Below, piece after piece: positions 2,009 to 20,884 of a DNA stretch of 22,666 nucleotides. Position numbers and translations under genes: made by a program. The notes under the pieces were generated by a model. That model was not told where the DNA came from, did no database searches, and worked only from the letters and a program-made list of their open reading frames with translations. Numbering within the stretch: position 1 is the first letter of the stretch; each line of letters starts with the position of its first letter. The stretch covers positions 1-22,666 of the forward strand of contig NWUY0300030335.1 of the NCBI GenBank assembly GCA_004151065.3, in the 5' to 3' direction. This stretch comes from Larix sibirica. Lineage: Eukaryota; Streptophyta; Pinopsida; Pinales; Pinaceae.

Positions 2009-2072
2009 GGTTATTCCAATCCTTGCGTGATTCCAATTGTTAGTATATATTCCAATCATTGGTTATTCCAAT
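2009..2072. repeat. four ATTCCAAT motifs spaced about 17 bp
   Basis: ATTCCAAT occurs at 2013, 2030, 2049 and 2065. The longer GGTTATTCCAAT occurs at 2009 and 2061. The spacing is 16-19 bases. It could be a decayed minisatellite or a repeated regulatory motif inside an element; I cannot tell which. Confidence 0.8.
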
Positions 2073-2209
2073 TGGGAGCGTTGTTCATAGCTCTAATTCC
2101 CATAGAATCCCATCATCTAGTAGAAGAGAATCTGAGTCTCTAGTAAAAATATAGATTTGTTTTCCATGAGTGAATTGGTTTATTAAGGAGGAATATAATG
2201 TTCTTTTTA

Positions 2210-2291
2210 GGAAGAATAGACTCGGTGAATGGCAAAAATCAATTTTCTAAGGAGGAATAGCTTCAATGAATGGAAGAAATTGATTTTCCAA
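2210..2291. repeat. 41-bp imperfect tandem repeat, two units
   Basis: Units 2210-2250 and 2251-2291 are both 41 bases and match at about 31 of 41 positions by eye, sharing GAATAG, TGAATGG and ATTTTC blocks. A partial third unit (TTTTCCATGAGTGAATTGG followed by GGAGGAATA) lies just upstream at about 2160-2197. Confidence 0.75.
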
Positions 2292-2600
2292 TGAGCAACC
2301 AAAAATTTAAATGTCCAATTAAGGAAACTTTCGAGTAAGCTTAGATTCCAGACTAAAGGACAAAGAAAAAAATCTCATATTTAAGAAAATGGTTTTAGTT
2401 CGAGAGGATTGTTGTTATGAACCAAAGATGTTTTCATGATATCATTTCTTTAAAATCACTTTCTAAGCTCTATAATAATTAAAATTGAATTTCTTCTCTT
2501 ATTTCCTAGACCCACCCAAAATTGATTAAGGATTCTAAGAAAATTTATGTGTGGGTGCTCTAGTGACTATTGGTTCCTTATGATCATACCAATGCATTTT
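2292..2600. other. non-coding, nothing recognised
   Basis: A+T-rich DNA between the tandem repeats and the plus-strand coding remnant. No motif, open frame or boundary could be supported. It may be 5' untranslated or LTR sequence of the plus-strand element that follows. Confidence 0.4.
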
Positions 2601-3240
2601 TCTTATATTGTTTCAGCCAAACATATTCAAACTACCACATGAAAATAAGGAAACTATCTCTTTTTTGTATCACTTAGGAGGCCTTGAAGGCCTAACAATG
2701 TGGTGTGATATGTACCATTTTTGGATTTGTATTTAGATTTATTTTCTTGCTGACCTTTATTTGACCCGAAATTGAATAAGGGGACGAAAGATGTATGGTG
2801 ATTTTTTCTTTTGTCGTGAAACTTTGATGCTTATGCTTGTGACATCACTTGTTTGGTGACTTGTTGCACAATTGGAGCAATTATTTGATGTTTTTAACAT
2901 TTGAAATTGGTGAATGTTTTATATGTTGTGACACATGGAGGTCTATCATTGCTAAATACACATGGAGAATTTCTTTCTAAAATTGTCTTAATGAGGATTC
3001 CAAGTATAGAAGACTTGTTCAGTCTTCTACAAACTTTTATTAATGCTTCACTAGGAACACAAATTCAAATTGGTAAAATCTCCCTTAGTAATTTGGTTAC
3101 ATGTACACAGATAATTCACACAAAGATTTATCTTCTTAAAAAAAAGGTTGTTAGTTGTTGAGTTAAGAATACTTTGAAATCAAGAATTTCTTCAACATTC
3201 TAATCATCTACTTCTTTAGAATAATCCATTATTTGGATTA
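2600..3240 (+). pseudogene. possible 5' part of decayed plus-strand retroelement ORF
   Basis: Short stretches look protein-like on the plus strand (for example MWCDMYHFW near 2700), but they are broken by stops and frame changes. An 86-codon open frame runs 2901-3161 and contains no domain I recognise. The position, directly upstream of a better coding remnant on the same strand that ends at a polypurine tract, makes a decayed gag-like region a reasonable guess. No zinc knuckle or protease motif is visible. I cannot name the product. Confidence 0.25.
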
Positions 3241-4100
3241 ACCATTGTAGATAGTGAAAATCAAAACCTCAAGCAACATACACCTTTGGATGACATGGAT
3301 GAATTGGATGTAGACACTAAGAAGAAATAATATAAATTGCAAAAATACACTAAGAAGAAAGAGAATAAAGAAGAAATTGTAAAACCTTAGGAAGCATTGC
3401 ATTTAAAGAGGAACAAACATGACTTAGGATAAGAAAACACTAAGCCTAACATCTTTAATCATATTCCTAATTATTCCAAATATGTTACATTTGTGAGTGC
3501 ATGTTTTCTTAATGATGGTTTGCATATCCATGCAATTGATTTTGGGATTGAATCCAATATGAAGGAACTTGAGGATAAGGATGATGATGGTGATGCAATT
3601 GATGATGATAAGTTGGGTGATATGAATAATTTGGTGATGTACGTGAATAGTGCCAGCATTGATATTTAGTTGGTCATAAGGAGTTACAGGTTTTTGATAC
3701 TAAACCATTCATTGTTTGTGCCAAGAAAAACTAGCTTTTAGAAAGGTGTATAAAAAGAACAAAGATTGATCGAAAACAAGTACATTTCAGATGGTTAGGT
3801 ACTTGGTATTGGATTTTAGAAGCCAAGTAATTGTAATGGTCTTATCATCAATTTCATACATAGGCGCAAATATGTTCGACACTAAGGAGAAGTGTCTACA
3901 TCACATGGATATGAATGCTTTTAACGAGGAACTGATAATTAGTTCATGAACAAGAGCTAATATATTGAACTTGTGTTTTAAGGTGAATATTAAGTCTTTA
4001 GACTTCACTCAAATACGTTATGGTTACCATTTTTCTACATTCAAGCGGGTACATTTATGTTGTTGAGTTACAGGTACTAGGACTTCTCACATTTCAATTG
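3241..4100 (+). pseudogene. decayed unrecognised ORF of plus-strand LTR element
   Basis: One frame from 3241 to about 3725 carries roughly 160 codons with only about four stops. It is lysine-rich early and then strongly acidic: around 3556-3610 the frame reads MKELEDKDDDGDAIDDD. After a frame change it continues from about 3789 with MVRYLVLDFRSQVIVMVL and a later IGANMFDTKEKCLHHMD. Stops are mostly single substitutions, which suggests a once longer protein. No DSG protease, reverse transcriptase, RNase H or integrase motif is visible, so I cannot assign a family. It ends just before the polypurine tract at 4101, the expected place for the last ORF of an LTR retrotransposon. It could be a non-autonomous element's own ORF or an additional ORF of a larger element. 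Confidence 0.4.
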
Positions 4101-4112
4101 ACAAGGGGGGAG
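4101..4112 (+). other. candidate polypurine tract
   Basis: ACAAGGGGGGAG sits directly after the coding remnant and is followed by TTATTGATGATAATTG. Polypurine tracts of this form prime plus-strand DNA synthesis immediately before the 3' LTR. The presumed TG start of the LTR is not clean (TTATTG), so the boundary is uncertain. Confidence 0.4.
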
Positions 4113-4199
4113 TTATTGATGATAATTGTCAAAATCCAAGTTTCAAAGTCTACTTGATTTTATTTTGAGGAATGCAAATGATTTAAGATGATGGTTTAA

Positions 4200-4400
4200 T
4201 GATTTTCAAGATTTTAAGGATATTGGAAATAGAGTATATTTGTCGAGATTGTTCAAACTTTAGAATTTCACAATTTTTTAGGATTTTGAAGATAATGGTA
4301 TTACATAATATTCACCAAGACAGTTCAACACTAGGATATTTGTTGAGGTAGTTCAACAATTGGCATTTTTTAGGATTCATGGGATTTTGAGGATATTGGT
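4200..4400. repeat. imperfect tandem repeats, units of about 70-100 bp
   Basis: Variants of GGATTTTGAGGATATTGG recur near 4209, 4281 and 4382. Between them, TTTGTCGAGATTGTTCAA and TTTGTTGAGGTAGTTCAA recur, followed by TTTTTTAGG. The order of the sub-blocks is conserved, so these are diverged tandem units. Lying just downstream of the polypurine tract, they could be U3 repeats of an LTR. Confidence 0.55.
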
Positions 4401-5034
4401 ATGGATGATGTTTTATGCATAGTTGTCATTCTGGCATTTGAGGATTTAGTCACTTATTGCATATTTGTGACTTGCATGGTTGTTTGAATTTTTTCATCAA
4501 TAACTTGGTTTCAAATTTTAGACAATCCCAATAGTTCACCTTGTTACTTTCTCAATAATTTTTCATAAACAAGTTTTATAGAACATGAGATTGGAGTGTT
4601 GATTGACATTTTTTTTTCTTTTGGATGGAGTATTGATAGTTTTGTATGTGTCATTTTCTAATAGTAGTTTTGTAAACATATTTATTTACTTTATAGCATT
4701 CATAATTTACAAAAATTTCATTTTGAACTAGAATAGGGAAATCGGTTCTTATGCATTTTTCTTGGCACATCAGGCTGACTAACATTTTCAAGATTTAAGA
4801 TACATTGGACTAATTACCATTTCAATTCTCATTAGAGTTTTCTCTCATTGGTTTTTAGGTTCACATTAGTGAACACTTACATGTCATCTAGCTCATTTTT
4901 TACATAGTGAGATGCCCAAGCTTGGTATTACACAGTGAGATGAGTATCAAGTTGAAGTCTTGGATAAGTTACTAGATTTTGCACTAGTTTTAGTTGCCTA
5001 GTTGGTGCAATTGTATGTACTTATGATTAACGTT
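4401..5034. other. non-coding, retroelement LTR or 3' untranslated region
   Basis: No open frame or domain on either strand. The stretch lies between two polypurine tracts on the plus strand, so it is probably the rest of an LTR begun near 4113 and/or the 3' untranslated region of the element whose LTR starts at 5049. Confidence 0.35.
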
Positions 5035-5048
5035 GTGTGGGGGGGGAT
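5035..5048 (+). other. polypurine tract before LTR
   Basis: GTGTGGGGGGGGAT contains eight consecutive G (5039-5046) and is immediately followed by TGTTAG, the start of the plus-strand LTR-like copy. A G-run ending in AT directly before TGTT is the standard polypurine tract/3' LTR junction of plant LTR retrotransposons. Confidence 0.6.
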
Positions 5049-5355
5049 TGTTAGCATTTTGATCACTCTAACCTTAAGTTTTTGGCATCCTCATGTATAC
5101 TTTAGGATATAGTTCTTATCCTAGGTATCATGTACTTAGTTATGTGTTAGCAACATGTTACCAATCTTTCCAATTAAGTGTCATTGATTGTTATGTAATG
5201 ATTATTATTGATTATACATTGTTATGTGAATATACTGGTTTCCATAAGGGCCTTTTCCACCATTTTCTTGGTTCTTTATCTTTTTCCAAATTAGACACTA
5301 ATTTATAACAAGGCTATTAGCTACTCAAGCTAGAAATGAAAATATCCCTAGATCC
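5049..5355 (+). repeat. LTR-like sequence, plus-strand copy (3' LTR candidate)
   Basis: Starts TGTTAGCATTTTGATCACT right after a polypurine tract and is homologous to the minus-strand sequence at about 1285-1653, so the two are inverted relative to each other. The exact right end is unclear. Homology is detectable to about 5350 (CAAGCTAGAAATGAAAATAT), and recognisable integrase coding on the opposite strand begins within a few tens of bases. This means the LTR either inserted into, or was joined to, the gypsy integrase gene. The 71-codon open frame inside it is incidental. Confidence 0.6.
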
Positions 5356-5369
5356 AATTCAGATCAATT

Positions 5370-5720
5370 ATGCACAACATAAACGAGTGTTGTAAGGAAA
5401 AAAATGAGAATATTTAAAAAGGAGGTCAACTACCACCATAATGGAAATGTTTTTTCCAAATTTTAGAAAGGAAACTATAAAATATGTGGACATGTCAACC
5501 CAAATAGTGGCATGGATCAACATTGGTTAAAATGACACAAGGGTCTCCATTGATTCACCCTTGCTCATTTGAGATGTGTCATATTCAACTCTGAATATAT
5601 GGATGTCCATTTCCATGCCTTCCCCAAAAAGGGAGTTCTTAGCTCATTCATATGTATTTTGAATGATTAGATGAGAAATGGTAGGAGAGGAATGTAATTC
5701 CTCTAACACCTATTCTCTTA
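5370..5720 (-). pseudogene. Ty3/gypsy integrase, N-terminal half, truncated
   Basis: Read on the minus strand this contains the integrase HHCC zinc-binding domain and the first part of the catalytic core. Visible in order: ELHSSP (first His), SHL where GHSG is usual (second His), then EYDTSQMSKGES where family members read CDTCQ..KGE, so both cysteines are replaced (Tyr and Ser). Next comes TIWVDMSTYFIV, where the first catalytic Asp of the usual MDF motif is Tyr, then IMVVVDLLFKYSHFF. The other two acidic residues of the DD(35)E triad are absent because the gene stops near 5370, where the oppositely oriented LTR-like sequence begins. Integrase inserts the retrotransposon cDNA; this one cannot work. 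Confidence 0.85.
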
Positions 5721-5924
5721 TTGTAGAGTCTATACCAAAAGCATACACTCTTTATACCTCAAGGTGTCATGTTTCCAAGTATAGCTTGTAGAGGTGTTGG
5801 GGTCCTCCTTAATTCATTGGATGAGTTTAACACCACCTTGAATTATCCAATCATTCTTGTTGTACCTTTGCAATACAATCTCATGTCAGTAATAGTAAGG
5901 CAAAGAGGGACCCTTCCTCCTTAT

Positions 5925-6330
5925 ATTTCATAAACAAAGCATCGAATGTGGCTTTCTCCATTACATTTATTATATGTGATCTCATAATTATAACCTAAAA
6001 TCCCAGTGACTCACTTGTGTTTCTCTGACGACAACAACCATTGTTCCAAAAAGTAATACAACCTATGATGATCCATCTTGAAATGGAAGCACCTCCTAAT
6101 AAGATACGTGCACCATGTATCAATGACATGAATGATGTCCATGATTTATTTATCATAGCTTGAATTTACCAAGTTTTTGTCACACAATTGTTTACTATAC
6201 AACGCCAATGGTTTCCCCTCTTGCATCAACAATACCCCATGGACCAAGACATTTTCTATAGGCATCACATTCTAGGATGAAGGTCTTTGTGAAATCAGGC
6301 ACTGCTAAGATGATAGTAGTACAGATGGAT
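5925..6330 (-). pseudogene. Ty3/gypsy RNase H, decayed
   Basis: Minus-strand reading shows the classic start of the gypsy RNase H domain, PDFTKTFILECDA, carrying the first catalytic Asp. After a frame change it shows LLMQEGKPLALYSKQL. Further on, GYNYEITYNK corresponds to the family's GYDYEI.Y..GK segment. The domain degrades the RNA strand during reverse transcription and follows the reverse transcriptase in Pol, as it does here. Several stops and frameshifts break it. Order and spacing agree with one ancestral Pol reading frame. Confidence 0.8.
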
Positions 6331-7120
6331 CATTAAGGCATGAAATCCTTACTCTAGTGCATCATTCCACACATGTATTCTTATTGATAATGGTGGTTAA
6401 TGGGGTTATAATTTCCCCATAACTCTTCCAAAATTCTAATAGTAGCTAGTAAATCCTAGGAAACCACATGATATTTTACGAGTCTTATATCCTAGCCAAC
6501 CTTTCATAGCCTCAATTTTCTTGGGATTCACTCACACCGCTATCCTACTGACTATGTGAACCAAGTATTTCACTTAAGAAGTGACAAAAATGCATTTGGG
6601 GAATTTGAGGAACACATGTTTATCCTAGAGTAGTTGTAAGTATTTATCAACTTGCACTATATTTTCCTCTCAAGTCTTTCTATAAATGAAAATATCATCA
6701 AAGAAGAGATGCACAATTTGTGAAAAAAGGGTTGAAAAAGCTTGTTCATGAGGCTTTGGAAAGTGGATGAGGCATTAGAAAGACCAAAAGGTATCACAAA
6801 AACACCATTATGTCCTTCTTGTGTCTCAAGGTTAATATAATGAATGTCAAGATCCATCTAGATTTGGTGATATCGAGAGTGAAAGTCTAGTTTAGTGAAG
6901 AATTGGAAACAATGAAGCTCATCTAAGAGGTCATCAATCACTAGGATGGGAAATGTGTCTTTGGTCACCAACTTATTAAAAGCATAGAATTTGGGAACAT
7001 GTGCCTATTGCCTTGTTTTTTCAATACCATAGTGATCGGGAATGATTAGGGAAGTTGAGGGTAAAAGGATGTCAACCAAGATATGCATTGAGTAGTTAAT
7101 TTCCTAGACTTAATGGTATA
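6330..7120 (-). pseudogene. Ty3/gypsy reverse transcriptase, decayed
   Basis: The strongest gypsy signal in the window. On the minus strand from about 7050 downward the reading gives YAFNKLVTKDTFPILVIDDL, then LHCFQFFTKLDFHSRYHQI (motif A with its catalytic Asp), then ETQEGHNGVFVIPFGLSNAS and TFQSLMNKLF. After a frame shift comes FFDDIFIYRKT, the F/YxDD catalytic box with both Asp present, then VDKYLQLL. About 200 bases on is VNPKKIEAMKGW, from the connection to RNase H. Upstream near 7130, HGKHEHSIPL matches the segment that introduces the RT domain. At least three frame changes and several stops are present, so it is a pseudogene, although the key Asp residues survive. Confidence 0.9.
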
Positions 7121-7229
7121 CTATGTTCATGCTTTCCATGTGAAGGATGCAAGTATTGGGTCTTTGAAATAACTTATCATGGTTAGTAAAAACAACTAAA
7201 AATCATGGAGAATTTCCTATGGGGAGCTA

Positions 7230-7720
7230 TCCATAACTTGGATGGCATTAAGTTGAGAAATAATGCCCGAGTGATCTTTCTTCAATCACTCTTACATACA
7301 ATGAGAGTTGATAATTTTTGGTGAAATGACCTAAAGACCTTTAAGGGTGTGTTTACAATCCTCCTTATTGAATTTCATGTATCCTTGAAAATCATTGTTA
7401 TCAAACCTAATGTTTGCAACCATTCTTATCCAAGAACTACATCACATCCTCCCTTTTTAATAGAATAGTTGTTGGATTTGAGAAAACTGTCCCCCATTTG
7501 AAGTTTCACATTCTCACACTTACTACCATGTTTCATCATACATCTATTTCCTATCATTATTTGATCCTTGTGTAGTACATGGATATAATAATGAGTTTCC
7601 TCTACGACTCAATAATGAATAAAATTGTGGGTGTTGCCATTGTTGATCAAGACAATCACTTTTTTATACTTGATATAGCCAACCAACTTCAAGAACTAGG
7701 GAGTTGAGATTCTTGATAAA
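7230..7720 (-). pseudogene. Ty3/gypsy aspartic protease, active-site mutant
   Basis: Minus-strand reading: FLKLVGYIKYKKVIVLINNG then NTHNFI, matching the pepsin-like retroviral protease start in which IDSGSTHNFI is usual. The catalytic Asp codon is AAC (Asn) at 7642-7644 and the following Ser is also Asn. Downstream, CENVKLQMGD and GGCDVVLG (the ILG/VLG flap-end motif, followed by a stop where the usual residue precedes EWL) and EWLQTLG are clear. This enzyme cuts the Gag-Pol polyprotein into its parts; without the Asp it would be inactive. The frame is unusually long for this element, with only a few stops in about 150 codons. Confidence 0.88.
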
Positions 7721-8070
7721 GTATTGAAGGAGATTTGGGATTCCTCATGAGGGGGCTCCTAGGTGGTTCCTTCTTGAAGAGGTGGTGTAGTCTCTGTTAG
7801 AACCATCTTTGCAGTGTCTTGTTCTAATAATTCCTTAGGAACTTGGAATTGATCCATATCTATGAACAATAATTTATGTTCTTTATATTTATGCCCTTTG
7901 AAAAACAATCTTCACAATGATAGCAAAGGTTGAGACATTAACATTTGATTGCTTCTATTAGGGACAATTTGGGGGACCTCAATAGCTAAGAAGTAGATGA
8001 ATTTGTTGTAGGAACGAGAGGGATATGTGGACGGGGATAAAAAGTGTAGGATTGTTTGATTTGGGAAATT
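7720..8070 (-). pseudogene. Gag zinc knuckle and Gag-protease linker, decayed
   Basis: On the minus strand near 7925-7885 the sequence reads CYHCEDCFSK and then, in a shifted frame, GHKYKEHKLLF. This corresponds to the CCHC nucleocapsid knuckle (C-X2-C-X4-GH-X-C in relatives). The last Cys is Tyr (TAT where TGT is expected), so the knuckle could not hold zinc. The linker that follows (MDQFQVPKELLEQD, ISFNTLSRISTP) leads directly into the protease. The knuckle normally binds the genomic RNA during packaging. Confidence 0.7.
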
Positions 8071-8079
8071 ACTATTAGT

Positions 8080-8790
8080 TGTTCTTATCTATATCACTTA
8101 GAGGCGTCCAACCATGTAGCAGGGTGAGCTACCTAGATTTGTGCTCTAGACCATCGATAAAAAATTTATTTCAAAAAAGTATCAATAATGCCTTCTATGT
8201 GGATTGATAATTGCTTGAAGGAATCAATAAAGTATTTGAATGTTCCTATTTGGTACAACTTGGTTAACTACCCTAAAAAAATATCATATGTTTCAAGTTG
8301 AGGATAGATGGCCTTCACAAGATGGCCTAGGAAATGTAGCCTAAACAAGCCTTCTTATGCCAATGTCACCATTTCCAATGCACTTGATCCAAGTATAATA
8401 CACCCACCTGAAGTTTCAATAGGCCGTCATGAATACCTTGGAGCAAAAATCAACGTTCCATCTATTTAATCCATCTTTTTGGGTTGGAACTATAAAACTT
8501 GTTCAAATCTACCGTAGGAAATCTATGGAACATAGGGTGATGATTGTCCTGAAAGTGTGTCCCTATGTAGTTCCTACCCCGCGTAAATGATTCACTACCA
8601 TCCTTCTACACCAACAACTTCTACCCATTCCCCATGACTGCAAGGATGTGAATTTGTTGATCATAGAAACCTATGCTTTCAAGTCATCAATATTATAAAC
8701 ATGTGCTTGCAGGTTGTTGATCTTAAAGACCTATTCGTTGATATTAGAGACCTATATTTCTAGTTGGGCGATGATAATATTCATGGTTGT
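8080..8790 (-). pseudogene. Ty3/gypsy Gag, decayed
   Basis: Read on the minus strand: about 8760-8640 has an N-terminal heptad-like stretch (KINNLQAHVYNIDDLKA, with stops nearby), a likely coiled coil. About 8540-8380 reads RFPTVDLNKFYSSNPKRWIK, stop, ME, then GIHDGLLKLQVGVLYLDQVH, the conserved start of plant gypsy Gag (relatives read WI..ME.YF...GI....KL..GVLYLD). About 8270-8110 reads LTKLYQIGTFKYFIDSFKQL, IHIEGIIDTFLK and HPATWLDA, the rest of the retrotransposon Gag domain. Gag forms the virus-like particle. Stops are mainly TAG/TGA. A second copy of the first part lies in the duplicated block at 10239-10680. Confidence 0.85.
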
Positions 8791-8834
8791 GCTTCTAGTG
8801 GCCACTATGTGACTCTTTTGTCAACCATAAGAGT

Positions 8835-8852
8835 TTCCAGTGAGTTATACCA
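8835..8852 (-). other. candidate primer binding site (initiator tRNA-Met type)
   Basis: The minus strand reads TGGTATAACTCACTGGAA just upstream of gag. It shares the first six bases and several later ones with the usual tRNA-iMet-complementary site that begins TGGTATCAGAGC (about 10 of 18 matches). It lies three bases after a CA dinucleotide that could end an LTR. The match is partial, so the call is weak. The same site is present in the duplicate copy at 10698-10715. Confidence 0.3.
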
Positions 8853-8855
8853 GCA

Positions 8856-9836
8856 TGATCAACATCATGAAAGGAGCATTTTGAGATATGTCTCCCACAA
8901 TGGTATAGGATATCATGAGCCTTTTATCTTAGGATTATTGTACTGATAGAATTCTCAAATTCCTGATATTTTAAGGTAATGGAATCTCACAACTAATGAT
9001 AAATAGATTGGGGTTTGCAGGGTCCTAAGAGAAAATAAGTGTTAAGTATTTCATCTCTTTGATACTTGAATATTTCCAACAATAGTACTCAGTTTCTCTT
9101 TCATGTTGGTATATATGGAGGAAATACTTTACCCTTAGTCATACTACCTGATTCTATAGTCCATGACAATGAGCTCCTTGAGTGTTGTGTTCGATGTACC
9201 ATAACAAAAAAATGACCAATAGGTTTATGTGAGGAGGGTTTAAGTGCCCTAGGGGGATTCGTATAGACTTGAAGGTACATGAAATATTAACTCTCTATAT
9301 AGGTTCCATTTAATGTGGTACTACTTACTAGGTACTAACAAGGGCATACAAGGGAAACCACCAAGGTTACTCCACTTGTATTCCTTGCATATATGCCTCC
9401 CAACTATAGTTTTACTCAATGAATGACAAATAATTGTCTTTAAAGATGTTGGAATGTGTCTTTGGCCTTAAAAAAAATCTAAAAATTGGGCATGTGTTTG
9501 GAGTGAACATTTTCTTTTATTTCTTAGAAAAACAGGAAATCCTTTATTGCTTGGGTTAAAATAAAACAATTGAGACTTTGTTTATTTTATTTTGGGGAGA
9601 CGAGGAATTTGTGTGACGACGACATTAATGGAGGGATCTAATGAATTTAAAACGAGGATGATGAACTTGGCAAAAATTGATCAATAAGACATCTATGACT
9701 CTAACATGACAAAACTTTCCCAAAGGAGACGCAGAGGTAAAATGATGACAAAAATCATGAAACTGAATACGGTTAGGCATAGTGCTTCACTATAGAATCG
9801 ATAGCTGAGACAAATTTAAGTATGTTTTCTTAGACA
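8856..9836 (-). repeat. possible LTR between upstream ORF remnant and gag (copy A)
   Basis: About 980 bases with no coding signal. On the minus strand they begin TGTCTAAGAAAACATAC right after the stop codon of the upstream ORF remnant and end in CA just before the candidate primer binding site. A purine-rich stretch (CCAAAGGGTCAAAAAATAG) precedes the start. These are the expected LTR landmarks, but no second copy at the 3' end of the gypsy element is visible, because that element is truncated in integrase. It could also simply be an untranslated leader. The homologous stretch in block B is 10719-11759 and carries extra insertions of about 49 and 16 bases relative to copy A. Confidence 0.35.
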
Positions 9837-10237
9837 CTATTTTTTGACCCTTTGGAATTGTGTCGATGTTGCGAAATCAACAAATTCATCACCCCTGATC
9901 TCATTGGCTTGAGCAATCTTGAAGTCATGCTCATAATTTGAAGGGAACGAATCATGGATTAGCATCATAAAAGAGGCTACTTGCATGTTAAGATTAAAAA
10001 TCATATCAACCCAAGTAGGTTGAGAACATGTTTCATCTCCCAACTCCAAGGCACATTCATGGTCTTCTTCTTCTCAGAGCACAAACTCATTCTTCTCATC
10101 ACTAGCATACACATTATATAAGGATTATGGCTCCTCATTAAAACCATATTGGGTATGTTAGAGATAGGTTTCAAGTGAGATTCCTCATCCACTTCCAAGG
10201 TTACTTCATCACACTCACTTTACAAAGTGATATCTCA
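9837..10237 (-). pseudogene. C-terminal end of unrecognised acidic ORF (copy A)
   Basis: On the minus strand the frame reads EEDHECALELGDETCSQPTW, VDMIFNLNMQVASFMMLIHD and SNYEHDFKIAQANEIRG, and ends FQRVKK followed by a stop at 9837. Upstream the same frame continues with stops (NEEHN..., SDEKNEFVP in the B copy). It is the end of the protein remnant that starts in block C near 14740, if blocks A and C are truly adjacent. No retroelement enzyme motif is present. It is rich in Asp, Glu and His. It sits upstream of gag on the same strand, which would be odd for one element but fits the 3' end of another element followed by an LTR. Confidence 0.45.
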
Positions 10238-10238
10238 N
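10238..10238. other. single N (contig join)
   Basis: One ambiguous base at the exact boundary between repeat copies A and B. The last 63 bases before it (10175-10237) are identical to the first 63 bases after the next N (13356-13418). Confidence 0.95.
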
Positions 10239-11759
10239 CAATGCACTTGATCCAAGTATAATACACCCACCTAAAGTTTCAATAGGCCGTCATGAATACC
10301 TTGGAGCGAAAATCAGTGTTCCATCTATTTAATCCATCTTTTTGGGTTGGAACTATATAACTTGTTCAAATATACTATAGGAAATCTATGGAGCATATGG
10401 TGTTGATTGTCCTGAAAGTGTGTCCCTATGTAGTTCCTACCCTGCGCAAATGATTCACTACCATCCTTCTACACCACCAACTTCTACCCATGCCCCATGA
10501 CTACAAGGATGCAAAGTTTTTTATCATAGAAACCTATTCTTTCAAGTCATCAATCTTATAAACATGTGCTTGCAAGTTGTTGATATTAAAGACCTATTCT
10601 CTTATATTAGAGACCTATATTTCCAGTTGGGTGATCATAGTATCCATGGTTGTGCTTCTAGTGTCCACTATGTGACTCTTTTGTCAACCATACGAGATTC
10701 CAGTGAGTTATACCAGCATGATCAACATCATGCAAGGATCATTTTGAGATAGGTCTCCCACAATAGTATAGGCTAGCCTGAGCCTTTAATCTTAGGATTA
10801 CTATACTTATAGAATTCTCAAATTCCTGACATTTTAAGATAATGGAATTTCACAACTAATGATAAAGAAATTGGGTTTTGTAGGGTCCTAAGAGAAAATA
10901 CGTGTCAAGTATTTCATCTCTTTGATACTTGAAGATTTCCAACAATAGTACTCGATTTCTCTTTCATGGTGGTATATAAGGAGGATATACTTTACCCTTA
11001 GTCATACTACCTAATTCTATAGTCCATGACAATGAGCTCCTTGAGTGTTGTGTTTGATGTACTATAACAAAAATATGACCAATAGGTTTATGTGAGGAGG
11101 GTTTAGGTGCCCTAGGGGGATTCATATATACCTGAAGGTACATAAAATATTAACTCTCTATATAGGTTCCATTTAATGCGGTGCTACTTACTAGGTACTA
11201 ACAAGGGCATACAAGGTTAACCACCAAGGTTACTCCACTTGTATTCCTTGCATGTATGCTTCCCAACTATATTTTTACTCAATGAATGACAACTAATTGT
11301 GTTTAAAGATGTTGGAATGTGTATTTGGCCTTAAAAAAGCTATAAAATTGGGCATGTGTTTGGAGTGAACGTTTTCTTTTATTTCTTAGAAAAATGGGAA
11401 AGCCTTTATTGCTTGGGGTAAAATAAAACAATTGAGACTTTGTTTATTTTATTTTGGGAAGACGCGGAATTTTTTAAAAGAAAATTGATAAGTGAACTTT
11501 AGGGGGGAGGGGAATTTTTGTGACGACGACATTAATGGATGGAGCTGATGAATTTAAAATGAGGAGGATGAAATTGGAAAAAACTGATCGATAAGAAAAA
11601 TATGACTCTGACATGACAAAACTTTCCCAAGGGAGATGCAGAGGTCAAATGATAACAAAAATCATGAAACTGAATATGGTCAGGCATAGTGCTTCACTAT
11701 AGAATCAATAGCTGGGACAAAATGGAATATATACAAATTTAAGTATGTTTTCTTACACA

Positions 11760-12431
11760 CTATTTTTCGACCCTTTGGAATCATGTTGATGTTGCGAAAT
11801 CAACAAATTCATCACCCCCCGATCTCATTGGCTTGAGGAATCTTAAAGTCATGCTCATAATTTGAAGGGAAAGAATCATGGATTAGCATCATAAAAGAGG
11901 CTACTTGCCTGTAAATATTAAAAATCATGTCAACCCTAGTAGGTTGAGAACACGTTTCATATCCCAACTCCAAGGCACATTCATGCTCTTCTTCTTCTCA
12001 CGGCACAAACTCATTCTTCTCATCACTGGCATACACATTATAGAAGGAGAGATGCTCCTCATTAAAACCATATTGGGTATGTTAGAGATAGGTTTCAAGT
12101 GAGATTCCTCATCCACTTCCAAGGTTACTTCATCACACTCACTTTACAAAGTGATATCTCATGCGCTTCACAAGGGTAGTCATCAAAGATTAGGCAAGAG
12201 TAAAAAACACTCAAATGATCATGCACATGCACATTAAAATTAGAATCGAGACACGGAGTGAGGGTTTGAAGGTGGAATTCTTTGGCAAGGATATCGTGCA
12301 TGGTATTTTCATGCTTAATGCCATCCTTCATGTATACTACTTAGATTTCAAGTTGGCAAGTGCTAACAAAAATATCGACTATCATGTCTTCAAACTAAAA
12401 TCATATTGATGCTACATCACTCCCTAGGTCA
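11760..12431 (-). pseudogene. C-terminal half of unrecognised acidic ORF (copy B)
   Basis: Continuation of the acidic ORF below its stop at 12434. Readable minus-strand stretches are GIKHENTMHDILAKEFHLQT, LTPCLDSNFNVHVHDHLSVF and DYPCEAHEISLCKVSVMK (12331-12125), then in changed frames GFNEEHLSFYNVYASDEKNE, EEEEHECALELGYETCSQ and ASFMMLIHDSFPSNYEHDF. It ends just before the possible LTR. The reading is broken by several stops and frame changes. Family unknown. The same stretches are present in C (about 13419-13658) and A (9837-10237). Confidence 0.45.
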
Positions 12432-12433
12432 TT

Positions 12434-12855
12434 TTATTCATTGCGAAAGATTTCCTTATCAGGGTAATCATAATAAGGAGGATTGTTGTAAGTTGTTTCA
12501 TCAAGCATATTCACATCAGTTAAATCATGAAGTGGGAGCTCATTGAGATAGGACTCAATGGTTTCGGTGTGTTGATCATGAGGTTTAGGTTTATTTTCGA
12601 TAAGGTCTTGTCCATGAAGGATGGAAAGAAGGTCATGTTCAATAATAGCTTCAAAGAAGGAATCCTCAAATGCAAAGGCATCATGAAGGGTCTTGTTATC
12701 AAGGAGAGTGTCGATGTCATTTTGGTAATCAAGCTTATATGTAATATGAGGATCAGGAATCAAAGAATCACCATAACACAATTCTTCACAAATACCTAAT
12801 AACTCTTCAAGTGAAGACTGAGATGGATAATCATTTGTTTGGATTACTAAGAAGA
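12434..12855 (-). pseudogene. unrecognised acidic ORF, central part (copy B)
   Basis: An open minus-strand frame of about 140 codons without a stop, from about 12855 down to the stop at 12434-12436. Landmarks are NDYPSQSSLEELLGICEEL, GDSLIPDPHI, KLDYQNDIDTLLDN, FAFEDSFFEA, HDLLSILHGQDLIENKPKPH and ESYLNELPLHDLTDVNMLDE. It is strongly acidic with many His and Asp and no transmembrane segment or known motif. Compared with copy C about 23 bases differ in about 375, and about 15 of 115 residues change. Changes are therefore mostly amino-acid altering, as expected for drift without selection. No start codon is obvious upstream. Confidence 0.5.
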
Positions 12856-13354
12856 AGCTAGGATTATGTTTACCTTATTGATTGGCCTTTATAAATAATT
12901 GGAAAGTTTAAGGTTCATGAGGTCCATTACAAAAATTACACCAAAGGAGGACTTCAAAAGCTCAGAATGCCATTAGGAAACCTTTCCACCCAAAGAAGAA
13001 GTTAGGAGGGAAAAACCTAAACTAGTGAGTATAGCATATTTTCCATGAAGGGTGGTGAGAATGATCCAGTCTATCGTGGGGTCATCAAGTATGCCTATAG
13101 ATATACAACAATGGGAAAATTTCATAAGATAACAATTAGGGGATTCCCAAAAATGTCCTTCAAAAGTATTAATATCAACACTATGTAAGTAAGCAAGCTA
13201 CTTAGGTTCACCGGTCGCGTCGCAAGGGATGATGGATAGACACTATTGGTCAGTCATGCTAATGCACTATTTGGAATGAAATAGAAAGAACTAAAACAAA
13301 AATGGAAAATAAACATTGAACAATACTCCCCAATATGGTCTCCAAAATATGTTG

Positions 13355-13355
13355 N
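13355..13355. other. single N (contig join)
   Basis: One ambiguous base at the boundary between blocks B and C. The 63 bases before it (13292-13354) are identical to 14550-14612 in C, and the base before that run differs (C versus A). Confidence 0.95.
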
Positions 13356-14612
13356 GTGAGATTCCTCATCCACTTCCAAGGTTACTTCATCACACTCACT
13401 TTACAAAGTGATATCTCACGCGCTTCACAAGGGTATTCATCAAAGATCAGGCAAGAGTAAAAAAACACTCAAATGATCATGCACATACACATTAAAATTA
13501 GAATCGAGACAAGGAGTGAGGGTTTGAAGGTGGAATTCATTGGCAAGGATATCATGCATGGGATTTTCATGCTTAATTCCATCCTCCATGTACACCGCTT
13601 ATCTTTCAAGTTGGCAAGTGCTAACAAAAATATTGACTATCATGTCTTCAAACTAAAATCATATTGATGCTACATCACTCCCTAGGTCATTTTCTTCATT
13701 GTGAAAGATTTCCTTATCAGGGCAATCATCATAAGGATGATTGTTATAAGTTGTCTCATCAAGCAGATTCACATCAGTTAAATCATGAAGTGGGAGCTCA
13801 TTGAGGTAGGAATCAATGGTTTTGGTGTGTTGATCATGAGGTTTAGGTTTATTTTCGATAAGGTCTTGTCCATGAAGGATGGAAATAAGGTCATGTTCAA
13901 CACTAGCTTCAAAGAAGGAATCCTCAAATGCAAAGGAATCATGAAGGGTATCATTATCAAGGAGAGTGTGGATGTCATTTTGGTAATCAAGCTTATCTGT
14001 AATATGAGGATCGGGAATCAAAGAATCGCCACAACACAATTCTTCACAAAAACCTAATAACTCTTCAAGTGAAGAATGAGATGGATAATCATTTGTTTGG
14101 ATTACCAACAAGAAGCTAGGATTATGTTTACCTTATTGCTTGGCCTTTAGAAATAAATGGAAAGTTTAAGGGTCATGAGGTCCATTACAAAAATTACACC
14201 AAAGGAGGACTTCAAAACCTCAGAATGCCATTAGGAAACCTTTCCACCCAAAGAAGAAGTTAGGAGGGAAGGATCTAAACCAGTGAGTATAACATATTTT
14301 CCATGAAGGGTGGTGAGAAGGATGCAATTTATCGTGGGGTCATCAAGTATGCCTATAGATCTACAACAATGGGAATATATAATAAGATAACAATTAGGGG
14401 ATTCCCAAAAATGTCCTTCAAAAGTATGAATATCAACACTAGGTAAGTAAGCAAGCTAATTAGGTTCACCGGTGGCGTAGCAAGGGATGATGGCTAGCCA
14501 CTATTGGTTAGTCGTGCTAATGCACTATTTGGAATGAAATAGAAAGAAATAAAACAAAAATGGAAAATAAACATTGAACAATACTCCCCAATATGGTCTC
14601 CAAAATATGTTG
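13356..14612. repeat. duplicated segment, copy C
   Basis: Matches 12099-13354 of block B at about 94% identity, with small differences only. Its first 63 bases equal the last 63 bases of copy A. Past 14612 the sequence continues without a counterpart in B. It holds the central part of the acidic ORF. Confidence 0.9.
13659..14130 (-). pseudogene. unrecognised acidic ORF, central part (copy C)
   Basis: The longest clean open frame in the left two-thirds of the window: about 150 codons on the minus strand ending at 13659, and open some codons further upstream (KHNPSFLLVIQTNDYPSHSS). Landmarks: LEELLGFCEELCCGDSL, LDYQNDIHTLLDND, SFAFEDSFFEASVEHDL, GQDLIENKPKPHDQHT, DSYLNELPLHDLTDVNLLDE. Acidic, no cysteine pattern or catalytic motif I know. 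After its stop the frame continues with HENPMHDILANEF and DEYPCEAREISLCK, so the original protein was longer. It may be an additional ORF of an LTR retrotransposon; I do not recognise the family. Confidence 0.5.
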
Positions 14613-14740
14613 ATCTCGAAAATGGTTCTCTCAAGATCAACAAATTCAACCTCCCATGAGGCTAGGTGGGAAAAGGTTGGAATGTCACCCTTAAGTTTTA
14701 AGCCTCCTAAAGATGTGCAATGAATCCCTAATGAGTTCAA
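14131..14740 (-). pseudogene. upstream part of the acidic ORF, decayed
   Basis: Protein-like minus-strand stretches in changing frames lead into the frame that ends at 13659. Examples are IPTFSHLASWEVEFVDLE and FWRPYWGVLFNVYF (about 14700-14570), VDIHTFEGHFWESPNCYL (about 14440-14390) and RSIGILDDPTINCILL. The frame changes and stops indicate decay. I saw no integrase, chromodomain or other known motif. Assignment to the same ancestral protein as the 150-codon frame rests on strand and continuity only. Confidence 0.35.
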
Positions 14741-15470
14741 TTTCCAAGAATTAGAGATTCTTGCTTGATTTTTCTAAGTATATGATTTTTCGTACTTTTT
14801 ATGTTAAAATTATTGGAACTAAAAACCCAGAAAGAACTAATAGAAATAAAACAAGTAGGATGCTAAAAATAAACAAAAACATAAACAAATACAACTACAA
14901 ACATTCACATGGCACGACATTCTAAAACATTCTCTTATTGCTTGAAATAAAGTACTCAATATATATAACTTGCAGTAGTATAATGAAAGGAGCATCAAAA
15001 TAAACATCATATCTATTAAATAAGAAAAAATACAAAGAAATCTAAGTGTTCAAAGGAGTCAAGGAAGAGGAAATGCTAAGGAAATGCAAAATACCAATAG
15101 TATATTTTATTAGAAAGAGAAGGTTCCACAAGGTATTTCTGCTCTGACAATGGACCAAAGAAAGCTCAAAATTTTCCAAAACGTTTTCGAGACTATGCAC
15201 ATAAAAGTTAAGTAATAGAGAAAAAAGAAAAACACAATTAATCATGGATCGGTTGATTTAAATATCAAACAACAAGTGTATGCTTTGTCTCAGTGTAGAG
15301 GGGTGTCCTTGCGATATACCTAGTGTATATCCCACACAGTAGCAGTAATGTAATTACCCATGACTTATATTTAAAAGAGGTTTTGATATAACTCGATGTG
15401 CAGTGGAACATACGATGCCTCTAGGTTTGACTCCTTTGGGGGTTTGAACTTGGCATGTTTTTTGATGGCT
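14741..15470. other. non-coding, nothing firmly recognised
   Basis: A+T-rich, A-rich on the plus strand, with no sustained coding on either strand. A 67-codon minus-strand frame at 15042-15245 has no motif. The stretch separates the minus-strand LTR-element debris from the plus-strand LINE, and its right part may be LINE 5' leader. A short perfect inverted repeat (GATATAC...GTATATC, 15313-15331) is present but ordinary. Confidence 0.45.
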
Positions 15471-15479
15471 CGATCTAGG

Positions 15480-15997
15480 TTTGGCTTGTACTCACTTATG
15501 AAGCCTCAATTTGATTCTAGGTTGGGCCGATTCTCTTTCTAAAACTAAAAAAAATGAAGCTCGAGATGTGAAGGGGGAACATGATAGATATGGACATGAA
15601 GTTTTGGAGTCCCTAGTAGAGGATTTTAACCCTGGTCCATATGGTGTTTTTGTTGGAATTGGGAAATAAATTCTTGGGTCGAGAATGTAAGGGAGATGAT
15701 GAAATGGATGGGATTTGTGAGGAGAACCAAAATATGGAGAGGTTTTACTTAGGGAGGGTCCTCGATATGATCTCAAGACCTAAAAGAGTGATTGTTGGGA
15801 CCCAAAAGGAAGTTTTGAAAGGGTTTTCGCACTATCAAAGGATAGGGGGGAAAGGAGGGGGAATACGAGGCAAAAGATCTCATTTTTCTATTGCCCAAGA
15901 GAAACCAAATTTGGAGATTCAATCATGGAAACAAATAATATCTATTGTGGGGGTTCTTAGAGTGAATAAACCCAAATCAAAGGTGATGATCCAATGA
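15480..15997 (+). pseudogene. LINE ORF1, C-terminal part, decayed
   Basis: Plus-strand reading before 15641 gives SLSKTKKNEARDVKGEHDRY and then NPGPYGVFVGIGK, which resembles the YGPWLR.. region near the end of plant L1 ORF1 proteins. After a frame change an open frame runs 15641-15997 (LGNKFLGRECKGDDEMDGI, later GGKGGGIRGKRSHFS). ORF1 proteins of this group bind the element's RNA. The RNA-recognition domain and zinc knuckle expected further upstream are not visible, so the element is probably 5' truncated or too decayed there. The ORF1 stop overlaps the ORF2 start as ATGA at 15994-15997. Confidence 0.55.
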
Positions 15998-16640
15998 TAT
16001 TTTCATCTCTTAAATATAGAGGGATGGGATTTCCCTCAAAGAGATTGGCCTTGAAAAGGTTGGTTGAGGGCCAAAAACTTGATGTTGTGTTCTTTCAAGA
16101 AACAATTGGGGAAGGAGACAACCTATGCTCAAAACTAAGAAAGTTACTTGCCAGGTGGGATTTCATTTTTATTGATTCTAAATTTAGGTCATGTGGTTTG
16201 ATATCAAGTTGGAAAACTCATTCTCATAAATGCACAAACTCGTGGATTTTTAATCCAGGTTTGGAAATTTCTCTTTGCTATTAGATTCTACATTTGGAGT
16301 TCTTAGCAATCAATTTGTATGCACTTTATTAAAAAAGCATCATATATTGGGAAAAATATTATTCAACAGAAGTTAGATGTGGAATTTGTGATAGTGGGTG
16401 GTGATCTAATCTTTTCAATAGGAAATGCAAAAAATTTGGGGGAGGTAGCAACCCAAGTGGATAGGATGTTAAATTAATTTGTAAACAAATTGTTGGACAA
16501 GGTTTACACGATGTTTTGTTAATGCAAATAAAACCAACATGGAGGAATAAAAGAATGGCTCTAAAAGAATATCAAAGAGACTAGATCACATTTAAGGAGG
16601 GAATTTGACTACTTCCCCATTTTTATCGAGATTGACAATG
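15994..16640 (+). pseudogene. LINE ORF2 endonuclease domain (APE type), decayed
   Basis: Starts at ATG 15994: MIFSSLKYRGMGFPSKRLAL matches the M..LSWN.RG.G...KR start of plant LINE ORF2, with Lys where the conserved Asn sits. DVVFFQETIGEG follows, keeping the metal-binding Glu (16099-16101), then FRSCGLISSW. A stop at 16282-16284 interrupts. After frame changes EFVIVGGDLIFS appears near 16380-16415, the GDLN motif with Asp kept (16403-16405) and Asn changed to Ile. Further on IKPTWRN is the usual T(W)RN segment. The terminal SDH motif is not recognisable (PIFIEIDNGGIRPPSP follows its expected place). The domain nicks target DNA to start reverse transcription; the Asn losses suggest it is inactive. 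Confidence 0.85.
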
Positions 16641-17240
16641 GAGGAATTAGACCTCCTAGTCCATAAAAATTTAAATCACGTTGGTCGGAAGAGCAATCCT
16701 TTGTAAAATTATTTAAGGAACATTAGGTTCCTTATGTCAAACATAACAACAAATCAACAACTATTTGGTTCAAGGAAAATATTAGAAATTTAAGTTTATA
16801 AAAAAGAGATGGATAGTAAATTGGAGGAATTATATATGTAGGACTTAGCAAGATATAAAAGTGAACCTTGATTTGTGATTTGGAAAGGAAGAAAACAAGA
16901 TGATGGAAGAGAAGAAGAGGACATGGAGGTTAAAGAGAAGAACATTGTGGCTAGACGAAGGAGATGAAAACACCAAATTATTTCATCAATTTGCCAACCA
17001 TAAAAGAAATATGAATACTATATGGAGAATGCAAGGGCTAGAAGGTCATAGTAGAATTAGATTTAAAGATTTATCTCAAGATAGTGTGAAGCACTTCAAT
17101 AATATCTATAAGGAGGATAATAGGGAAACACTTGTTAAGGTTATTAGAATGGAATCCTTCTTCCCAAACTTTGTTTTGGAGGAATATAATTTACTGTTGA
17201 TGGAAGAAATTTCAAGAGATGAACATCAAGAGGTTTTGCA
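16641..17240 (+). pseudogene. LINE ORF2 linker between endonuclease and RT
   Basis: Begins with decayed frames (SRWSEEQSFVKLFKEH, TTIWFKENIRNL) and becomes a clean open frame from 16900: RTLWLDEGDENTKLFHQF and HKRNMNTIWRM match the W...GD.NTKFFH....R...N.I segment that precedes the reverse transcriptase in L1-type LINEs. HFNNIYKED and ESFFPNFVLEEYNLLLMEEI follow, leading into the RT. This region is known as part of the N-terminal extension of LINE RTs. The frame is continuous with the RT domain downstream. Confidence 0.8.
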
Positions 17241-18260
17241 GTCATTTCAAAATGACAAGAGTCTAGGTCCTGATGGATGGATTTTGGAAATCTTTATAGG
17301 ATTTTACGACTTTATTAGGGAAGATTTATTAAGAGTACTAGAGGAATATTGGTTTTCTTGTAAAAGTTAAGCTACTTTCAATTCCATTTTTTTGGATTTA
17401 ATTCCAAAATTAGATAACCCTACAAGCTTTGATGAGTACAAATCATTATATTTATGCAACTATATTTACAAGATAATTTCAAAGCTGGTAGCAAGGAGGG
17501 TGAAAGACCTATTATCCAAGTCAATTTATTGGGAAAAATTTGGTTTTCTTGGAAGGAGACAAATTGGTCATGAGGTAGTGAGGGTAGCTTAGGAGGCTTT
17601 CTACATTCTCAAAACCAAGAGTTTATTTGCAATTCCTATTAAGGTGGATCTTTCAAAATCATACGACCAAGTAATATGGTTATTATTGAGATTATTGATG
17701 ATACATATACAGTTGGCGAATTAGATAATGAGGTGTGTCATGACTATGTCTTTTGCAGTTATAATTAAAGCATCAACATTCAAATTATTTAGTCCAAGAA
17801 GGGGGATCCGATAGGATTGTCTCCTTTCTCCATTGCTCTTCCTTATCATGGTTGAAGGTTTAAGTGTATCCTTGATTGAGGTTAGATCATCTGGAGCATT
17901 CAAAGGGATTAGAGTTGGTAGTTCTTATACATTTTGCATTTTCTCTTTGTAGATGAAATATACTTATTTTGTGATGGCACCTCGATGGCACATGGAGGGA
18001 TGCTCTCAAGTTAAGGTAGATAATGGATTTATATTGTTTAGCCACTGGAATGATAAGCAATATCTCAAAGTCGATTGTCTCCTTATCAATCAATATGGAA
18101 AACAAGAACCAGTTCAAAAAAATGTTTTTGTATTATGATGTGGAATTTTATATGGGGATAGAGTACTTGGGATTCTACATAAATCCTAACAATTATTCAA
18201 AAAGGGGGTGGGTTGGATGATTTCAAAGGTAGAAAAAAGATTAACTTTATGTGTCAATAG
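17240..18260 (+). pseudogene. LINE reverse transcriptase, decayed
   Basis: The same frame runs from 16900 to about 17935 with only a few stops (17368, 17590, and two more). Motifs in order: NDKSLGPDGW; LDLIPKLDNPTSFDEYKSL then LCNYIYKIISKLVARRVK; FGFLGRRQI; KVDLSKSYDQV (motif A, Asp at 17647-17649); R-stop-DCLLSPLLF where RQGCPLSPLLF is usual. A one-base frame change follows, then HFLFVDEIYLF at 17937 onward: the catalytic FADD box with the second Asp changed to Glu (17955-17957). Downstream, CLATGMISNISKSI and MGIEYLGFYINP match the end of the fingers-palm and thumb region. The enzyme copies LINE RNA at the nicked target. Substitutions at the active site and in motif B indicate an inactive copy. 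Confidence 0.9.
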
Positions 18261-18925
18261 ATGGATTTTAGGGGGGGTAAATTGATATTAGTTAAATCGA
18301 TTTTGGAGGTTGTTGCAGTGTATTGGGTTTAATTGTCTTTCATCCCTAAAGGAATAATGGAATCAAGGAGGAAGATGAGATTTAGTTATCTATGGTTTAG
18401 TAAAAGGTAAAAAAGGCATTTCCCTTGGAATTCCTAGAAAAGGATTGCACTGTCGAAGGAGATGGAGGATGGGAGTAAAAATGATACATTATTTTGCAAA
18501 GGCTTTAGATGTTGAATGTGTATGGAGACTAGTAGAAGGAAAATGAATGTGATGCAAGGAAGTAAAGAAAAGATACATCGAGCCATTGACTATGGAATAA
18601 TGGATTGGATCTAGTACAAAGACTTATCGTGTTGGAAGGTTATCGTTTTGGCATACCCCTTGGTGGGAAGTTTCCTTGTATGGAAAGTTGGTGCAATAAG
18701 CAAAATAAGCATAGGTGAGGACCTATGGCTGGTATGCAATGATATGTATAAGTTTCTAAGGAATAAGGTATAGGAGTTAAGAGGCATATATATTTTCTTT
18801 CTAAGTCAAGTTGTTGATATGGAAAGATTCACCATTCTGAGTCAAGGATGGTGAAAGCATAAATTTTGGGCTTCAGAGGAGAGGAGGAGAGCATTTGTTT
18901 TAATATTTGTCAAAGCTTAAAGAAT
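18200..18925 (+). pseudogene. LINE ORF2 thumb and connection region, decayed
   Basis: Frames change often, but the order of conserved blocks is clear: WMISKVEKRL, then CVNRWILGG where WL..GGR....K is usual, a block corresponding to P.YW.SLF.IPKGI (VYWV near 18318, IVFHP.RNNGI), FPLEFLEKD and GDGGWE where SWK.I..P...GGWG is usual, and GIPLGGKFPC further on. This section links the RT to the zinc-finger region in plant L1 elements. No catalytic residue is expected here. Confidence 0.65.
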
Positions 18926-19325
18926 TTTCAGATCAGAATTAGAGAGGATGAAGATGAGTTAATATGGTCTAGGAACCTTGTAAGGGGGATATATAATCCT
19001 CAATTGGGATACAACGTGTTGAGAGAAGCATAATACATTCAAGAATTGAGGTGGCAGAATAAAGGAAACTAGAAGTTCAAATGTCGCTAAAAGTGAAACC
19101 TTTTATGTGGTTGAATATTAATAATAGAGTCCCCACATGGGATTTTATACAAAGGAGGGACTGGAAGGGACCAAAATATGTTCTCTATGCAAGGTAAGTG
19201 ATGAAGACACTTCTCATATGCGTATCCATTACAATTATGCTAAAGTTGTGGGGAAGAAAATTGTTTACATAGCAGGTATAGATATAATATGGGAACATAT
19301 TGGACCGGTTGGCCATTGTGCATAG
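18925..19325 (+). pseudogene. LINE zf-RVT unit, first copy
   Basis: QIRIREDEDELIWSRN and GIYNPQLGYNVL (about 18930-19025) introduce the unit. After frame changes come LKVKPFMWLNINNRVPTW and then, in the frame from 19137, TKICSLCKVSDEDTSHMRIH followed by YNYAKVV. This is the zinc-binding reverse-transcriptase zf-RVT pattern C-X2-C-X8-H-X4-C. The final Cys is Tyr (TAT), so the finger is broken. A second copy of the whole unit follows immediately. Confidence 0.75.
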
Positions 19326-19349
19326 TTATTGGATGGTTTCATGGATGAG

Positions 19350-19745
19350 CTTAAAATATCCCATATTAGAATTAAACAAGAGGAAGATGAATTGGTGTGG
19401 ATCTTCAACAACTTGGGAGGATCCTATTTGGCCCACCTAGGATATATGTCCACAGTATTAGGGGAAGGGAGAGTGATCCTATGGTGGTGGAGGAAGTTGT
19501 GGAAGGTGGAAGCTACTCCCACATGTGTCCTATTCCTATGGATGTTGTTGAACAAGAAAGTCCTGACTTGGGATAGAATGTAGAAATGGAACAAATATGG
19601 GCCGAGTATTTGCATGCTATGTCGAGGGGATGAGGAAACAAGTGAACACTTGTTTTTAAGATGTGATTATACCAAGAAATTATGGAGGGAAATTGAAAAT
19701 CAATTAAGCTTATAAGAGCTTTGGGAACTGTAATGGACTGTTTTT
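19350..19745 (+). pseudogene. LINE zf-RVT unit, second copy
   Basis: ISHIRIKQEEDELVWIFNNL then LAHLGYMS parallels the start of the first copy. FLWMLLNKKVLTWDRM, a stop at 19580, then GPSICMLCRGDEETSEHLF with LRC give an intact C-X2-C-X8-H-X4-C finger (Cys at 19611 and 19620, His at 19647, Cys at 19662), followed by YTKKLWREIENQL. The zf-RVT domain lies between RT and RNase H in plant LINEs and is thought to contact nucleic acid. Better preserved than the first copy. Either a tandem segmental duplication or the truncated 5' end of a second LINE. Confidence 0.82.
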
Positions 19746-19774
19746 CTAAAAAAAATATTGTAGATATCTAAAGG

Positions 19775-20345
19775 TATATTGATCACTTCCTTTCCTCACC
19801 TCATGGGGAATTTGGTCAATGCATAATGAAGCCATATTTGAGGGAAACATGCCTCCTTTAAAAATTCCTACCCAAGTGATTTCTTTCCTCCATAACTACA
19901 ACCAAGCAATGCCTAAGATTAAAGTATGGGTGGTGGGGGCCTTGAGAATTAAAAAATATGAAGCATGGAGCTTCTTTGATGGCGTGTTAGGGGTTGGACC
20001 GGTGATGTGGTATTGGTTTTACTTAGTATCTCTAGGATTTACGTTTCTTTCAGGGAAAATCTTCATTGGGGTCGATCTCCAACAACATGGCTAGATTGAC
20101 AATGTGTTTCCAATTTTTAAAGTAGGCTTCAGACTTGGGTTTGAGAAAGATCCACGTTTATGGTGATTTCGCTCTCATCATCGATTGGATGAAGGGAGAA
20201 CAACAAATTATGGATAATGGCTTGTTCCACTTGGATCTCTACATGAAAGAGATTAGCAATCTTTTTCTTCATATTGGTTTTGAGCATGTGTCTCGGGACA
20301 CAATTTAGAGGCCAAATTTCTCTCGAAACAAGCTCTTCATTAGAA
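19775..20345 (+). pseudogene. LINE RNase H domain, first of three
   Basis: LPFLTSWGIWSMHNEAIFEG (about 19786-19845) is the conserved W.IW..RN..IF block that precedes the RNase H in plant LINE ORF2. EAWSFFDG follows, with the first catalytic Asp at 19978-19980. The middle is frameshifted. Then VYGDFALIIDWMKGEQQ carries the second conserved Asp (20164-20166), and HIGFEHVSRDT matches the F.HV.R..N segment, after which the usual LSK motif is decayed. RNase H would remove the RNA template; an extra RNase H domain is characteristic of a group of plant L1 elements. Several frame breaks make it non-functional. Confidence 0.8.
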
Positions 20346-20880
20346 TATAGGGATGCTTCATGTGGATGAATTTCATGAAGGATCTTTAGTCTCTAACAAG
20401 TCATATAAATTCTAAAAATTTCTTGTATGATTAAGTCTACCAAAACTTATAATTTTTTTTTTTGCGGAAAGGGTAGTTGCTTTGATTAGTTATCGTTGAG
20501 GGGATCTTTTGTGTATTACCGTATTGGGATTTGTAGAAGGGTGTTTATTTGTCAATTGTGCCTTGGCACCTAAGGATTGTATTTTCTATTCTCCTTGAAT
20601 TGAAAGCATGCTTCTTCTTGTTTTCTGGAAATGTGTGTGTGTGTGAAGGGGAAGTCCCAAATGTGGAAAATGCTCTTAAAGATTGGTATAAGAACCCTAT
20701 GTATAAGAACTTAAAGGATTTACCTTTGTTGATGGATGGGGCATATGTCTTAGCCAGAATGTTGGTTTGTTTAATGACAATCAAGTACCTCATGGAGTTT
20801 GTGCAACATAGATTTGGGCTATTTTAAGATATTTATATCAGGAAAAAGAGATAAATCATCAAGGATGTTTCGAAAGGAAA
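20346..20880 (+). other. probable LINE 3' untranslated remnant
   Basis: Lies between the first and second RNase H segments. It starts with a T run (about 20450-20461) and includes (GT)7 at 20632-20645. A 92-codon open frame at 20549-20827 has no recognisable domain, and I see no W.IW..RN block that should precede the next RNase H. It may be the 3' tail of the first LINE, plus decayed lead-in to the second. Confidence 0.4.
20632..20645. repeat. (TG)7 dinucleotide repeat
   Basis: Seven consecutive TG units. Confidence 0.9.
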
Positions 20881-20884
20881 TCAG

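Follow-up and report, generated by a model that had tools for sequence, protein, structure and literature searches.

Published forms of false duplication include a layout in which a duplicate contig sits between two contigs that overlap each other at their ends (PMC2864568), and the falsely duplicated contigs reported in that account have a median identity of 98.1%. For heterotype false duplication (PMC9516828), the marks are gaps between the duplicated pair on one scaffold, read depth reduced to half, discordant read pairs and heterozygous k-mers present in one copy. A related signature, in which a variant sits at position k from a contig end, is described in PMC5368935, where most such cases are attributed to repeats and not to heterozygosity.

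The locus described here resembles each of these in part. Our window, the whole 22,666-nucleotide stretch of Larix sibirica DNA that was analysed, is identical to scaffold C8174 of the searched assembly (618,328,334 bases in 19,862 contigs) and consists of three contigs, 1-10237, 10239-13354 (block B) and 13356-22666, separated by the only two Ns in the window (Table 1). Block A directly continues the left flank L (1-8375), and block C leads on into the right flank R. As in PMC2864568, A and C overlap end to end, by 63 bases, with the duplicate contig between them, and on the contained-contig criterion given there B aligns over its full length to A+C. The case differs from that account in its identity, 93% against the median of 98.1%, and in that the test described there relied on mate pairs. 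As in heterotype false duplication, diverged duplicates lie adjacent on one scaffold with gaps between them, each gap here being a single N of a kind that also occurs, in the other loci compared, without flanking repeats. As in the position-k signature, the first difference between A+C and B is at the 64th base, counted inward from either the start of C or the end of B, corresponding to K = 63; unlike that signature as described, it appears at just two of the four contig ends at Ns, the first difference falling on the 109th base at the end of A and on the 35th at the start of B.

Table 1. Coordinates of features in the window, with the relatives that cross the left edge of the unit
Feature	Position	Strand	Remarks
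Block A, left part of unit	8376-10237		Ends contig 1-10237; aligns with B 10239-12161
First N	10238		Separates A from B
Block B, complete second version of unit	10239-13354		Separate contig; end-to-end alignment with A+C
Second N	13355		Separates B from C
Block C, right part of unit	13356-14612		Opens contig 13356-22666; 94% to B 12099-13354
108-base run, end of A	10130-10237		Identical to B 12054-12161; stops where contig A stops
63-mer common to A end, C start and B interior	10175-10237		Identical to 13356-13418 and 12099-12161
63-base run, end of B	13292-13354		Identical to 14550-14612 within contig C-R
Left end of B	10239-10272		34 bases match A (8376-8409), then a mismatch; not a 63-base overlap
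zf-RVT zinc-binding RT piece	19326-19580	+	Pfam, below curated cut-off
RVT_3 RNase H-like pieces	20982-21197, 22324-22665	+	Pfam, above curated cut-off
Relatives aligning through left edge of unit	8375/8376		C160 (L006 and L040, overlapping loci), C501 (L007), C5916 (L012), C1261 (L014)

All 3116 bases of B align with A+C, which measures 3056 bases once the 63-base overlap is taken out, with 210 mismatches in 3054 columns (6.9%) and five gaps of 45, 16, 1, 1 and 1 bases. Divergence is 7.9% to the left of the 108-base run and 6.0% to its right. The layout of blocks and Ns given in a preliminary description of this DNA was confirmed by a position check, and the equivalence of B to A+C that it proposed, at about 6% divergence, holds over the full length at the slightly higher value.

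Exact shared runs and contig ends

The same description had read two exact matches, between the end of A and the start of C and between the end of B and the interior of contig C-R, as k-mer overlaps of a de Bruijn assembly. Direct comparison bears out both matches, each exactly 63 bases long and the second immediately preceded by a C/A mismatch. Exact runs of at least 63 bases between B and A+C number only two (108 and 63 bases). Each has a contig break at its right end, and the next longest run, of 62 bases, carries none. Contig A stops with the last base of the 108-base run, and C starts 63 bases before that point. Were the 215 differences placed randomly, 2.3 runs of at least 63 bases would be expected; the runs themselves are ordinary, and the telling point is that contig ends sit on them. 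Under a simple null with random break points and overlap lengths drawn evenly between 1 and 200, the probability of finding two overlaps of the same length, at least 20 bases, the first ending at a mismatch, is about 7e-5. The overlap geometry is that of de Bruijn contigs overlapping by K = 63.

The 63-base signature is real; the k-mer overlap reading does not extend to the left end of B, where the match to A is only 34 bases long. That end looks arbitrary, since 8.0% of the positions in B have at least 34 matching bases ahead of them. An artefact is the most economical reading, but the adjacency of A and C does not follow from their overlap by itself, because that 63-mer is present in B as well. 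The same overlap would likewise arise if A led into the right half of B and the left half of B led into C.

Contig ends in the window and in the one other place compared give a mixed picture, the exact overlap lengths being 63 (start of C), 63 (end of B), 108 (end of A), 34 (start of B) and 48 bases (L014). The single dispersed pair available for comparison, L011 (C5548) and L014 (C1261), which were fetched as distant relatives of the left flank and are 92-93% alike, have four exact runs in common, of 63, 64, 83 and 84 bases, and no N occurs at any of them. Since such runs were passed there, the stop of B on a 63-base run asks for another reason, of which its running into a shared right flank is one. 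The contig of L014 that starts after an N (base 1499) agrees with L011 for 48 bases and first differs at base 49, evidence against one overlap length holding for every contig end. In scaffold C14500 (L029), the first bases match 11 other places at 89-98%, with alignments ending at bases 62-72 (4 at 62 and 3 at 63), which lends weak support to a word size near 63.

The single Ns at the block boundaries had also been counted among the supports of the artefact reading, and comparison with other loci weakens them. Outside C8174, the loci compared contain four single Ns and one 279-N run at a locus edge in 150,198 bases, a figure that includes about 4.1 kb counted twice in overlapping loci. None of the four single Ns has a 30-base flank repeated within its own locus, and the suffix/prefix overlaps at them are 0, 0, 2 and 0 bases, with just 48 and 223 bases visible on the right of two of them. 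A single N is a usual gap mark in this assembly and by itself uninformative; for this reason its reading as the sign of a negative gap was dropped.

We compared the unitigs produced by 23 models of the assembly graph, including 16 that keep the printed order and vary its bases at the Ns. When nodes are 64 bases long, the end of A, the start of C and the end of B all come out of M1 and M1b, the two models that let B return to the right flank. The dispersed copy (M2), the direct and phase-swapped tandems (M3 and M4) and the three-copy models (M6 and M7) give the first two ends without the end of B. The printed order with one real base in place of each N gives all three ends in 4 of its 16 choices, namely whenever base 13355 is an A. 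Once nodes are 63 bases long, the three ends follow from every one of the 23 models. The start of B is predicted by none of the 23. Both M1 and M1b would in addition break a unitig at 14612, a position that the finished contig passes.

Copy number, relatives and sequence character

Among the matches listed when B was searched against the assembly (40 of 170 candidates scored), those of at least 90% are B itself, A (90%) and C (94%). The next lie on C1483 at 72-77% over about 300-600 bases; the remainder are members of an old repeat family at around 70% and short pieces (50-72 bases) reaching 85%. Among these matches, B is specifically the sister of A+C. For the left flank (4500-8375; 40 of 614 scored), the matches listed are the flank itself, relatives at 64-76% and one match of 84% over 60 bases; for the right flank (14613-18000; 40 of 103 scored), they are the flank itself and others at up to 84-87%. 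Neither flank has a second copy at 90% or above among the matches listed, nor is a whole second haplotype of the scaffold seen among them. A control region, L029:1-6000, similarly has no second copy at or above 90% beyond its first 72 bases among the matches listed (40 of 76 scored). If B is allelic, the two versions must therefore turn alike right after 14612, or the other contigs must be absent from the searched set; it is in this want of a second flank copy that the allelic reading has its main weakness.

Relatives of 64-68% at four places align unbroken through the left edge of the unit (Table 1), which indicates that A follows L as it does in the repeat family and that 8376 is merely where the contig of B starts. 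The same alignments led us to reject this edge as the end of a transposon. On C501, one of these relatives has three copies of a part of the unit 380-480 bases long, so local tandem copies occur in the repeat family of the unit.

Redundant scaffolds seem to be present in the assembly: L042 (C17516) and L043 (C16907) are identical over 2705 compared bases and match at equal coordinates, C17302 and C17342 also match at equal coordinates, and C46 and C8769 score equally. Pairs of equal-score matches on one scaffold, at C5663:40090-40537 and 46686-47133 (6.6 kb apart) and at C2689:88298-88585 and 91284-91571 (3.0 kb apart), are candidates for similar local duplication. Within the window, an imperfect inverted repeat of about 90 bases (79%) joins 1428-1520 and 5185-5273, and broken LINE-like remains occupy the plus strand at 15603-22666; a relative of 15603-18000 at 84-87% lies on C18622.

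The mismatches between the copies comprise 100 transitions and 110 transversions, a ratio of 0.91 that seems low for CpG-depleted DNA; the observed/expected CpG ratio in the window is 0.27, and CpG transitions make up 26 of the 210 mismatches. With eight relatives as outgroups, 47 changes were assigned to A+C and 31 to B, and 41 were unclear. By the assigned changes and the CpG figures, both copies look like real DNA. A duplicate built from read errors was rejected, given 210 substitutions against 5 indels and changes assignable to both copies.

We also rejected the block as a known gene or RNA: it has no Rfam hit and no tRNA, its reverse-strand open reading frames have no Pfam hit at E up to 1, and its longest open reading frame has no relatives. 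Matching minus-strand open frames, without a Pfam hit, run over 13662-14132 in C (157 codons) and 12437-12874 in B (146 codons). In the 146 codons compared, 25 differ, 18 of them nonsynonymously, which argues against strong constraint. Exact searches of genome_contigs and viral_contigs with 42 bases of the shared 63-mer found no match.

Competing explanations of the A-B-C order

The explanation we prefer, at a probability of roughly 55%, is that the A-B-C order is an artefact that sets B, an alternative version of one and the same locus, in series between A and C. A and C are then probably neighbours in the genome, and B is most likely an allelic or homeologous version at the same locus. Graph contigs would overlap by 63 bases, and the two versions share runs of that length at only two places, the 108- and 63-base runs. 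Contig L-A does stop at the right end of the 108-base run, C-R does start with its last 63 bases and B does stop on the 63-base run; B would have been assembled through the 108-base run as a path of its own and have stopped where this path was to merge into the right flank. Read pairs anchored in the common surroundings may then have led to the insertion of B between L-A and C-R, both joins being marked by an N. Support comes from the position of contig ends on the sole two runs of at least 63 bases, at the right end of both and not on the run of 62, from the 64-base-node models in which B rejoins the right flank and all three ends appear, and from the restriction of the listed matches to B of at least 90% to A and C. 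Against it stand the 34-base left end of B, which no model tried predicts, the finished contig passing the predicted break at 14612, the first difference at base 49 and not 64 of the L014 contig, and a divergence of 6.9%, which is high for a false duplication. The three ends are also obtained from the rival models with 63-base nodes, or from the printed order in a quarter of its base choices. A variant in which the block is sharply bounded and hyperdivergent, its versions 6.9% apart over 3.1 kb and near-identical from base 14613, as might result from introgression or conversion of a haplotype block within an old repeat, seems improbable to us.

A real local tandem, with at least two copies of a 3.1-kb unit partly assembled, is unlikely, though it would account for several features: B spanning the unit exactly, the start of B having no 63-base overlap, and the order A-B-C itself. 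The divergence fits an old duplication, the triple copies on C501 show a precedent among relatives, the three contig ends follow under every model tried once nodes are 63 bases long, and the gap lengths may be unknown because a single N is a usual gap mark. On the other hand, zero matching bases are found at the two would-be junctions, the end of B is not predicted with 64-base nodes, and nowhere in the window does the end of one unit meet the start of another without an N, both joins being Ns, though this could also come from incomplete assembly. A direct tandem further requires a false join between C and R. A two-copy, phase-swapped tandem would run L, A, right half of B, left half of B, C, R, with B a loop opened at its 63-base end, and supposes that the two halves of B were wrongly joined at the 108-base run and that a true join at a 63-base run was overlooked.

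It is slightly more doubtful that the order is an artefact in which B is a paralog from elsewhere, scaffolded in through the shared 108- and 63-base runs. A divergence of 6.9% fits paralogs as well, a related repeat has dispersed members about 93% identical (C5548 and C1261), and both flanks appear single-copy at 90% or above among the matches listed; but the contig of a dispersed copy, which leads into a right flank of its own, would continue beyond the 63-base run if nodes are 64 bases long, and apart from A, C and the short pieces no listed match to B exceeds 77%. What probability these three readings leave belongs to other causes. That the arrangement is an artefact, of whichever kind, is likely.

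The case is probably a routine error of assembly without biological meaning, and no biological claim follows from the A-B-C layout. A tandem duplication called at 8376-14612 would probably be false. If the order is an artefact, local copy number is inflated and reads map ambiguously here, which matters to users of the assembly only. For them, a fixed-length exact overlap at scaffold Ns provides a simple, read-free flag for candidate false duplications.
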